Position numbers and translations under genes: made by a program. 32,573 bases of DNA from a virus: positions 1 to 32,573 of IMG/VR virus record IMGVR_UViG_3300045976_000284; one strand, written 5' to 3'. Below are positions 13,629 to 17,029 of the stretch, piece by piece. The notes under the pieces are model-generated. The model made no database searches, had not been told where the DNA came from, and saw only the letters and a list, made by a program, of their open reading frames with translations. Position 1 is the stretch's first letter, and each line of letters starts with the position of its first letter.

Positions 13629-14330
13629 TCAGCGTGACCGCCGACGGCGGGACGTCGCGCCGATCAGCGCGAGGCCGGCGAGAAGCATCGCCGCATCCGC
13701 GGGCTCGGGGACGTTCGTCGCCCAGAAGGAGGCGCCGAAGCCGCCGGTCTCGACCGAGTCCGTGCGGTTGGTGATGACGACCGAGTAGGGCGCATTCGCC
13801 TGCGCAAACCAGTAGTCGGCGCGCGAGTAGACGCCGTCCAGCGTCCATTCGGTTCCGACGGAGCCTTCACCACCGTGCAGGTCGAGGACGACGGTGCCGT
13901 TGATCTCGAGCACGCTGTGAGGCGCCAGCGTGAAGGTCCCGCCAACCAGCAGATCGGCTTCGCCATGGCCAGGCGCCTCGCCTTGGACGTAGACGCCGCC
14001 CGTGCCCGTCGCCGCGTCCCAGTTCGCGAGCAGCGTCGTCGCCGGCATCCCCTGGTAGTCGAATTCGGCTTCGCTGGTGATGTCCCCGAAGGGGCTCGTG
14101 CCGGTGCGATAGCCGCCGCTCTTGCTCGTCCAGAACGGCGGAAAGGCCACCGGCGGCGCGTAGCTGTTCGCGGTGTCGGCACCGGTGAACGCGAAGACCG
14201 AGTCGTTCCTGCCGTTGGCGTCGAAGCCCTCGAACGTGAGGTTCGAGATCGCGGCGGTGGTCGTCGCTTGTGCACCCGCCGCTATAGCCATCCCGACCGC
14301 CAGCGCGAGCGCCTGCATTCTGGTGCGCAT
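13629..14330 (-). CDS. Secreted PEP-CTERM sorting-domain protein (accessory/moron gene)
   Basis: A 233-residue exported protein. It has an N-terminal signal peptide (MRTRMQALALAVGMAIAAGA), a beta-rich, Asp/Gly-rich body without Cys, and a C-terminal VPEP motif followed by a hydrophobic helix and RRRRSR. That ending is the PEP-CTERM signal processed by exosortase in bacteria that secrete exopolysaccharide. The ATG at 14330 is chosen over an upstream in-frame ATG because AGGAGG sits 7 bases before it and the signal peptide starts there. It lies opposite in strand to the lysis genes, between the lysis block and attP, a usual place for morons. The role of the body is unknown; surface display or matrix modification is inference. 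Confidence 0.85.
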   Translation of the reverse strand: MRTRMQALALAVGMAIAAGAQATTTAAISNLTFEGFDANGRNDSVFAFTGADTANSYAPPVAFPPFWTSKSGGYRTGTSPFGDITSEAEFDYQGMPATTLLANWDAATGTGGVYVQGEAPGHGEADLLVGGTFTLAPHSVLEINGTVVLDLHGGEGSVGTEWTLDGVYSRADYWFAQANAPYSVVITNRTDSVETGGFGASFWATNVPEPADAAMLLAGLALIGATSRRRRSR

Positions 14331-14452
14331 GGGTGCGCCTCCTGTCCCTTGATCGGCCGTGCTCGTCGACGGGCGCCCCATGCGCGGTCATCCGGCTCGG
14401 CTCCGCGGCGCAGTCTAGCCGAGGGCCGCGGGTCGAGGACCCCCAGAATCGG

Positions 14453-14889: not shown

Positions 14890-14916
14890 GGGGAAATATC
14901 CGGGGAAGAATGCCCC
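14890..14916 (+). repeat. Putative integrase arm-type sites, left pair
   Basis: Two head-to-tail copies of a GGGGAA(R)nATnCC motif: GGGGAAATATCC (14890-14901) and GGGGAAGAATGCC (14902-14914). A matching pair lies on the other side of the attP core. Pairs of direct repeats 60-100 bases from a tyrosine-recombinase core are the usual layout of integrase arm-binding sites, and the integrase here carries an arm-binding N-terminal domain. Confidence 0.65.
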
Positions 14917-14970: not shown

Positions 14971-16281
14971 CTACTTGGCGCGCCTCAGATGGGTTCGAGT
15001 CCAATCGCGCCTACCAGATGCAGAGGCCGGTTTCTCCTCGGGGGAACCGGCCTTTTCTCTTTGGGGCGCCGGCGCCTGGGGAAATGCCGGGGAAGTATCC
15101 GGCGCGCCGCCGGTGCCCTGCAGGGTGTCGAGTTGGCGCATCTTCGCGCGCTCCGCGTGGCCGTCGCCGCCCGGTATCCACCGCGCGTAGGTCTCCAGCA
15201 GCTCCTGCAGGCTGTGCCCGAGCTGATCGGCGATCCACGCCGGCTTCAGGCCTGCCATCAGCAGTTCCGTCGCGCGGGTGTGCCGCGTGCAGTATGCGCG
15301 CCGCGCGCGCACGCCGGCCCGGCGCAGCGCCGGCTTCCAATAGGTGTCGCGCTGGCTGCGCTCGTCGTGCCAGGGCGCGCGCAGCTCGGGATGCTCGAAC
15401 ACATCGCCTTCGCCGCCGGTCTTGACGTAGGTGAACGGCTTCATCGCGAGCAGGGCCGCCATCGCCGTCGCGTTGAGGTCGACGTCGCGCAACCGGTGCG
15501 TCTTCGATCCCTCGCGCTCGGACCCCCGGAACGTGCGCACGCGCGCGACGCGCACCGTCCCATGCGTCCAGTCGACCTCCGACCAGCGCAGCGCGATGAT
15601 CTCCTCCGGCCGCATGCCGGTCGCGAAGGCGAACTCGAAGTAGGCGACGACCCGGGGGTCGAAGTTCTCGCGCATGTCCGCGAGCACGCGGTCGCGCTCG
15701 ACCAGCGTCAGCGGGTCTGGGAGCTTCTTGACGACCGTCGAATTACCGATCCCGATCAATGGATTCTCCAGCGCCCGCGGCCCCCGATATATGAGCGCGA
15801 AGGCCCCGCGCAGGGGAATCAACGCGTTATTCTTGGATTTCGGAGATTTCCAGGGGTGCGCACCGATTACCGCGGCCAGCTTCGCGTGCTGAATCGACGC
15901 GAACGGCGTGTCGGCGCCGAGGAGCGGTTTCCAGAGATTCTCGAGGGCGTTCTGGTATTGGTCGCGGGTCGCCTCGGACTTGCCGCCGATCGAGTCCAGG
16001 TACAGCCGGCAGACGTCGGCGAAGGTGTCCTCCTTCTTCGCGACCGCCCGCGCCGCCTCAGCTTCGGCTGCCGCGCGCTTCGAGGCGGGGAAGAAGTCGG
16101 CCCAGCGGAAGGTGCCCGCGGCGATCGCCCGGCGGACGTCGACGACCAGGCGCTCGGCTCGCTTCTCGTTGGCGGGCGTCGGCGCCCAGGCTAGTGTTTC
16201 TCGGCACCATTCGCCTTGCCATTTGAACCCGACGCGGATGGACTTTTCGCGTAGTTCAACGCCCGATCCCGTTCGACCCAC
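14971..16281 (-). CDS. int: Tyrosine integrase with DUF3596-type arm-binding domain
   Basis: A 436-residue site-specific recombinase. The N-terminal DUF3596-like arm-binding domain has GVELREKSIRVGFKWQGEW. The core-binding domain is at about 85-180, the catalytic domain at about 190-380. Active-site residues are readable: Arg224 in ATGMRPEE, Lys260 in GSKTHRLRD, Arg333 in YCTRHTR (the usual His of HxxR is Tyr330, as in many relatives), His356 in LGHS and the nucleophile Tyr365 in LETYARW. Residues after about 385 are a low-complexity tail read through the right arm repeats, the terminator and the att core; its last codons (RRDWTRTHLRRAK) come from the core and beyond. It integrates the phage at a tRNA-Val gene by inference. 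It starts inside xis. Confidence 0.93.
   Translation of the reverse strand: MGRTGSGVELREKSIRVGFKWQGEWCRETLAWAPTPANEKRAERLVVDVRRAIAAGTFRWADFFPASKRAAAEAEAARAVAKKEDTFADVCRLYLDSIGGKSEATRDQYQNALENLWKPLLGADTPFASIQHAKLAAVIGAHPWKSPKSKNNALIPLRGAFALIYRGPRALENPLIGIGNSTVVKKLPDPLTLVERDRVLADMRENFDPRVVAYFEFAFATGMRPEEIIALRWSEVDWTHGTVRVARVRTFRGSEREGSKTHRLRDVDLNATAMAALLAMKPFTYVKTGGEGDVFEHPELRAPWHDERSQRDTYWKPALRRAGVRARRAYCTRHTRATELLMAGLKPAWIADQLGHSLQELLETYARWIPGGDGHAERAKMRQLDTLQGTGGAPDTSPAFPQAPAPQREKAGSPEEKPASASGRRDWTRTHLRRAK
14992..15016 (+). other. attP core: 25-base match to a tRNA-Val 3' end
   Basis: The segment begins GGTTCGAGTCC (T-arm and loop) and ends CGCGCCTACCA (acceptor strand plus CCA). From memory it matches the 3' end of proteobacterial tRNA-Val (GAC). 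The bases just before it (CAGATG) break the T-stem, and no D-arm or anticodon arm lies upstream, so this is a tRNA remnant used as an attachment core, not a tRNA gene. It lies inside the 3' end of the integrase frame on the opposite strand. Confidence 0.82.
15024..15062 (+). terminator. Rho-independent terminator downstream of the att core
   Basis: AGGCCGGTT (15024-15032) pairs perfectly with AACCGGCCT (15045-15053), with a partly paired C/G-rich loop. It is followed by TTTTCTCTTT, a good T-rich tract on the + strand. It lies 8 bases after the CCA end of the att core, so after integration it would terminate the restored tRNA-Val transcript. It is also inside the int coding frame on the other strand, where it has no T-tract and should not stop int transcription. 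Confidence 0.8.
15078..15100 (+). repeat. Putative integrase arm-type sites, right pair
   Basis: GGGGAAATGCC (15078-15088) is immediately followed by GGGGAAGTATCC (15089-15100), the same motif and orientation as the pair at 14890-14914. They lie within the C-terminal coding part of int. The two pairs flank the core at comparable distances (about 62-84 bases on this side, 78-102 on the other). Confidence 0.65.
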
Positions 16282-16469
16282 TTCTCATATCCCTTCATGT
16301 CAATATAAATCCGGCCGTCGTCGGGCTGTCGGCGATATTCGAATCCCGGTCGCCAGATACCCCGCTGGATCTTCGTTTCGATGGCCCGCTCGGTGAGGCC
16401 GGTGAGCTGCGCCGCCAGCGCGATCGTAACGAACCGCGCAGGCGCGAGCTGGACGACATCGGCCGTCAT
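16191..16469 (-). CDS. xis: Excisionase-like winged-helix protein
   Basis: A 92-residue DNA-binding protein. Residues 12-62 carry an excisionase winged-helix pattern (RFVTIALAAQLTGLTERAI, then RGIWRPGFEYRR and IYIDMKGYEKWVE). The acidic/Asn-rich tail is likely disordered. Xis bends att DNA to steer the integrase toward excision. It is the gene before int and overlaps the int start by 91 bases in another frame, recalling the lambda xis-int overlap. The start at 16469 has GGAAGG upstream and overlaps the DUF1643 stop (ATGA). Confidence 0.85.
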   Translation of the reverse strand: MTADVVQLAPARFVTIALAAQLTGLTERAIETKIQRGIWRPGFEYRRQPDDGRIYIDMKGYEKWVERDRALNYAKSPSASGSNGKANGAEKH

Positions 16470-17029
16470 GACGTCACCTTCCGCCGCCGGCGCCGCGGGG
16501 GCGCCATCGCGGCCTCGATCGCCTCGGCGTCGAACGGCTGCAGCGCGCAGCTGGCCGGCAGGTACAGCGGATGCGCCGGCCACCCTTCGCGCGTGATGCC
16601 GAGGCACTGCGGCCGGTGGCCGCCCCGGCGGACGGCGGGCAGCACGATCTGCACGCGCGCGTCCGCGGCGTCGCCGCCCGCGGTGCCCCACGCGACGCAG
16701 ACAGCGTCGGCCAGCTGCAGCGCCGCGTCGATGTGCGCGTCGTTGTGGGGCCCGACGGGAAAGCCGGCCCGGCGCAGGTCAGCCGGGCTCGTCGCGCGGT
16801 AGGCGAACAGGTTGACGATCTCGAGCTCGCCGAAGCCGCCGGAGCGCGCGAAGCCGATGCAGCGCCGCACCGTCGGGTCGTCGAGGTTGCCGTCGGCGAT
16901 CGACGGGTTCAGCATCACGAACAGCAGGCGCGGCCGCGCGGCATCCCAGAAGCGCAGGAGGCTATAGCGATACCGGCCGCACTCGCTGAGGGTCGCGGTG
17001 CGCAGCGGCTCGAAGACCTCAAGCTGCAT
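16466..17029 (-). CDS. DUF1643 family protein
   Basis: A 187-residue protein with the full DUF1643 pattern: CGRYRYSLLRFWD, then LLFVMLNPSIADGNLDDPTVRRC, then ELEIVNLFAYRATSPADLR and GPHNDAHIDAAL. It ends in a basic tail (PPRRRRRKV). DUF1643 proteins are widespread in phages and bacteria with no established biochemical role. The start is the ATG at 17029 with AAGGGAGG upstream, overlapping the preceding gene by 11 bases. Confidence 0.9.
   Translation of the reverse strand: MQLEVFEPLRTATLSECGRYRYSLLRFWDAARPRLLFVMLNPSIADGNLDDPTVRRCIGFARSGGFGELEIVNLFAYRATSPADLRRAGFPVGPHNDAHIDAALQLADAVCVAWGTAGGDAADARVQIVLPAVRRGGHRPQCLGITREGWPAHPLYLPASCALQPFDAEAIEAAMAPPRRRRRKVTS

Follow-up and report, generated by a model that had tools for sequence, protein, structure and literature searches.

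Does a phage whose integrase gene ends inside its own attachment core make one integrase as a free phage and another as a prophage, and would the difference matter? The question is raised by IMG/VR virus record IMGVR_UViG_3300045976_000284, positions 1 to 32,573 of which (32,573 bases) are the window analyzed here. Genes of a contractile-tail phage (sheath, baseplate), RecT, a YqaJ-type exonuclease and a C5 cytosine methylase are found along the window (1-32573). The ORFs that were checked included no identifiable head or packaging gene, which makes the record a probable fragment. The window has no tRNA gene and the core is flanked by phage genes on both sides, which indicates the free (attP) arrangement. 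The gene at 13629-14381, between attP and the lysis genes, encodes a PEP-CTERM sorting-signal protein, an unusual cargo for a phage and a hint of a betaproteobacterial host.

An integrase reading frame across the attachment core

The features around the core are as follows:

14891..14907, minus strand: predicted arm-type sites on the far side, a TTCCC pair spaced 12 nt
14971..14991, minus strand: free-phage int tail HLRRAK and TAG stop, in phage DNA past the core
14971..16281, minus strand: int, tyrosine integrase of 436 aa, GTG start
14992..15016, plus strand: attP core, an exact 25-nt copy of the tRNA-Val(GAC) 3' end, from T-loop to CCA
15022..15055, plus strand: intrinsic terminator in the tRNA direction, 5 nt past CCA, antisense within the int coding sequence (z -3.5)
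15079..15094, minus strand: predicted arm-type sites on the int side, a TTCCC pair spaced 11 nt, within the int coding sequence
16191..16691, minus strand: ORF directly upstream of int with an excisionase-like domain at about residues 78-166 (PHROG excisionase families); start approximate

The int product is a tyrosine recombinase/phage integrase with an N-terminal arm-binding domain (Arm-DNA-bind_2, PF12167, residues 6-68, E 2e-17) and a catalytic domain (Phage_integrase, PF00589, residues 208-367, E 3e-15), and the catalytic residues R224, R333, H356 and Y365 are invariant in 21 relatives. The int family, in which the HxxR histidine is Y, escaped a regular expression written for the tyrosine recombinase motif, and an HMM was used instead.

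The translation of the minus-strand ORF (14971-16281) ends in ASGRRDWTRTHLRRAK followed by a stop. The core 25-mer, GGTTCGAGTCCAATCGCGCCTACCA, is present a single time in the window (14992-15016), and 100 dinucleotide shuffles gave 0 matches at up to 3 mismatches. Its antisense codons encode the GRRDWTRT of int, and the attP core is therefore contained in the int ORF. The original observation that int reads across the core into HLRRAK and a TAG is thus confirmed, and the core is exact and single. The antisense of tRNA-Val is open in the GRRDWTRT frame, so that an integrase lacking an earlier stop would run through the core. Since the last residues of int are encoded by the DNA used for insertion into the tRNA, recombination would change its tail, from the phage-specific HLRRAK to NDPHHVKVVL and a TAA located antisense inside the tRNA. 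AlphaFold models the window integrase confidently up to about residue 387, near which the folded part ends, and residues 396-436 have pLDDT values mostly below 50; the extra residues past the folded domain are thus predicted to be disordered.

Tails of related prophages and free forms

IMG/VR and genome searches returned no prophage of exactly the window phage, the nearest prophages being those of relatives. Family prophage integrases that read through the core are 48-61% identical and are located at intact tRNA-Val(GAC), which, along with the identity of the core to the tRNA 3' end, supports the target that had been proposed. They end in DWxRTNDPHHVKVVL and a stop, with an NDPYHVKVVL variant in two; among the homologous integrases in tRNA-Val(GAC) prophages the ends are DWIRTNDPHHVKVVL, NWIRTNDPHHVKVVL or DWTRTNDPHHVKVVL, each followed by a stop. 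The stops lie in the tRNA, where the earlier note had suggested reading them, and the tail that it had predicted agrees with these ends in sequence detail. Further prophages ending in NDPHHVKVVL (L040, L132, L198) or NDPYHVKVVL (L204, L043) came from the IMG/VR and genome searches.

Both forms of the tail could be read in two Roseateles genomes, where homologous integrases (52-53% identical) abut intact tRNA-Val(GAC) and their frames cross the core to end in FGRRDWIRTNDPHHVKVVL and FGRRNWIRTNDPHHVKVVL, respectively, before the stop. A second copy of the core is present 51-57 kb away. The sequence past these remote att copies is different, and the same frame yields RTNSK and RTSSKPEED followed by stops, so that NSK and SSKPEED are the tails that the Roseateles free forms would carry. 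Other free-form tails from the IMG/VR and genome searches are SAAGEPKGTKGRAA (L143), NTRGN (L144), NKSGTGG (L168), KKPGNSGQ (L180), NSRRAAGRGKP (L195) and one of 26 residues (L066). Integration thus replaces the C-terminus in the relatives, as read from homologous prophages and from the remote att copies, and the anticipated difference between free-phage and prophage integrases exists in the family. By extension from these sequences, the window phage would be expected to swap its tail in the same way.

The remote Roseateles copies were also considered as active tandem prophages; this was ruled out, as their outside flank lacks an open int. That flank is a relic of an int 3' end of 82-150 bp, on the side of the remote tRNA-Val core that faces the chromosome (L005 1447-1528; L009, reverse complement, 1378-1526) and 89-95% identical to the resident int 3' end in the two genomes. 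It looks as if it were the scar of an earlier, related prophage since lost; in L005 it may alternatively be the native tRNA terminator.

No common sequence is shared by the free tails of family members, which are mostly polar at the end, while the prophage tail always ends in VKVVL. A role of the free tail as an ssrA-like tag was discarded: HLRRAK is not ssrA-like, and an AA end was found only in L143 (GRAA). The tail peptide was not found in a search of the literature, and the family alignment, used to search genomes across the class, recovered solely the R. violae copy.

Nesting of int in the attachment site explains the DWTRTNDPHHVKVVL endings of predicted integrases; the origin suggested beforehand for the DWTRTNDPHH endings of annotated integrases, read-through into tRNA-Val antisense, is supported. 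Protein comparisons can be misled by such tails, through spurious homology and false matches to tRNA genes. The prophage-form tail GRRDWIRTNDPHHVKVVL (query residues 402-425) matches translated tRNA-Val genes in many of 301 genomes.

Conservation, reading frame and possible function of the tail

The family sample comprised 52 integrases, 38 of them non-redundant and with the core in view. Read-through was found in 15 of these 38, and the remaining 23 stop before the core, the early-stop sisters using the same tRNA as the read-through integrases. A maximum-likelihood tree requires about 13 changes of the read-through state, no fewer than with shuffled labels; well-supported branches force at least 7 of them. 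In the three alignable read-through pairs, nucleotide differences pooled for the linker are spread evenly among the three codon positions (18/15/19), and over the final 100 codons of the catalytic domain of the same pairs third positions are favoured (51/40/128). The flat differences in these three pairs rule out the linker as a conserved protein segment, and the extra residues appear to behave like unconstrained sequence.

We consider it fairly likely (probability around 0.72) that attP encloses the int 3' end, that recombination swaps the tail and that the swap is largely a neutral by-product of the nesting. The overlap itself and the prophage and free tails of relatives are direct observations; that the swap would be largely neutral follows from the tail being, as we infer, a disordered addition past a complete catalytic domain. 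The earlier note had left undecided whether the two tails mark or tune the integration state or are neutral. The second option is the better supported, while the first conflicts with the frequency of early stops, the repeated changes of state, the unrelated free tails and the unconstrained linker.

A regulatory reading has its precedent in Myxococcus phage Mx8 (IntP/IntX; Tojo 1996; Magrini 1999, cited through PMC6070905 and PMC4701971). According to those articles, attP is inside int and integration swaps the C-terminus from 112 residues to 13, with lower activity or changed specificity. Likewise, attP is here within a tyrosine integrase gene that would acquire a new C-terminus upon integration, and the free form might favour integration, with a less active or less stable prophage form protecting lysogeny. 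The precedents of Mx8 and the mycobacteriophage repressor gp33 (PMC6070905, PMC4701971, PMC4557955), the bias of read-through to one frame described below and the constant non-polar VKVVL end of the prophage tail, set against the mostly polar free tails, are in its favour. However, sister integrases at the same tRNA stop short of the core, the free tails are unrelated to one another, the read-through state is not conserved on the tree and, unlike in Mx8, only about 6 residues would be exchanged for 10, past the folded domain. We regard regulation of this type as unlikely. By analogy with Mx8, where an altered integrase C-terminus can affect activity, some doubt about neutrality may be justified, but a regulatory role of the tail swap is unsupported and probably absent. 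The principle of an integration-dependent integrase tail has been known since Mx8, and the window integrase is a further case; read-through and early-stop sisters at one tRNA offer a natural series for testing an Mx8-like tail swap.

The frame of entry into the core deserves separate consideration. The frame names refer to where codons begin with respect to the first base of TGGTAGGCGC: f0 gives an immediate TAG, f1 GRRDWTRT and f2 VGAIGLEP. Among the 38 non-redundant integrases, read-through was found in 15/20 in f1, 0/9 in f2 and 0/9 in f0 (none of the 9 f0-phase integrases gets as far as the core TAG), against 9.9, 2.9 and 2.6 expected from shuffled linkers. The difference between f1 and f2 has a Fisher p of 2e-4, with relatedness of members ignored. 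Composition fails to explain the bias, because 9 of the 15 non-redundant f1 read-through members also have f2 open throughout the last 60 nt and, in early-stop members, f1 is open no more often than the other frames. Either an ancestral f1 read-through was lost often, or long f2 tails, covering the whole tRNA, are counterselected, or f1 is favoured. Pure neutrality does not predict a one-frame bias, which keeps a weak functional reading open.

One such reading takes GRRDWTRT, common to both states, as a useful C-terminal element for which f1 is kept, the later residues being incidental. All 16 read-through integrases are in f1 despite the frequently open f2, and distant members have in-frame linkers of 50-107 nt. 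These residues, however, are dictated by the tRNA, which makes their conservation uninformative; they are absent from most family members, and the same bias could arise from repeated loss of an ancestral f1 read-through. We find this explanation quite improbable. No more credit can be given to the idea that the tRNA target acts as donor of a C-terminal tag, with f1 favoured and the appended non-polar NDPHHVKVVL lowering integrase stability or activity and so helping to hold the prophage.

Attachment-site packing and known systems

On the plus strand, GGGAA is found at 15079-15083 and 15090-15094 on the int side of the core, and at 14891-14895 and 14903-14907 on the far side. In the family, pairs of TTCCC (or TGCCC) with a spacing of 10-12 nt are located on the int side, where they fall within the int coding sequence in read-through members, and also past the core in free forms. 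An int-side pair within 100 nt of the core is present in 20/38 relatives (0.6 in shuffles) and a far-side pair in 13/21 free forms (0.5 in shuffles); in prophages, 0 of 14 have a pair past the intact tRNA. Since the TTCCC pairs are one helical turn apart and present on both arms, they are probably arm-type sites for the integrase N-terminal domain.

The hairpin at 15022-15055 is strong and has a T-run in the tRNA direction only. Its position suggests that, after integration, it would serve as a replacement terminator for the restored tRNA-Val transcript. A hairpin ahead of the core also raises the doubt that the tail is an ORF artefact, int transcripts ending there and the tail being translated rarely or not at all. 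In some members, such as L002 and L158, the hairpin preceding the core is two-way and has a T-run in the int direction. In the window, however, the T-run faces the tRNA direction only, and no stop codon lies ahead of the hairpin, so that ribosomes would continue to the transcript end; we hold an artefact to be rather improbable. The last 40 or so codons of int overlap the predicted arm-type sites, the terminator and the core, in that order, a case that illustrates how densely arm sites, a tRNA terminator and a tRNA end can be packed into the end of an integrase gene.

Integration of SSV splits the integrase gene, unlike the situation here, in which int exchanges its tail only. As in SSV-type viruses and Islander islands, a tDNA fragment overlaps the integrase ORF (PMC4383910). 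Islander lists Mx8 and SSV as integrases extending across attP, for which an explicit exception was made, and 626 of its 3919 islands overlap annotated coding sequences (PMC4383910). The ICEs at rumA differ from the window int in having a serine recombinase/integrase and a protein-coding target with a changed frame (PMC4701971). In mycobacteriophage BPs, in which immunity depends on integration, attP is in the repressor gene (gp33), the viral form of which carries an ssrA-like degradation tag (PMC4557955). As in BPs, a C-terminus would report the integration state, attP being inside a gene; unlike in BPs, the core lies not in a repressor gene but in int, with its integrase domains. The same kind of overlap is found at other target genes: distant integrases at tmRNA, 37-38% identical, also enter the target RNA gene antisense and end in VEAGGIEPPSESPLQSVLHT and a stop (L045 2733, L047 1584).
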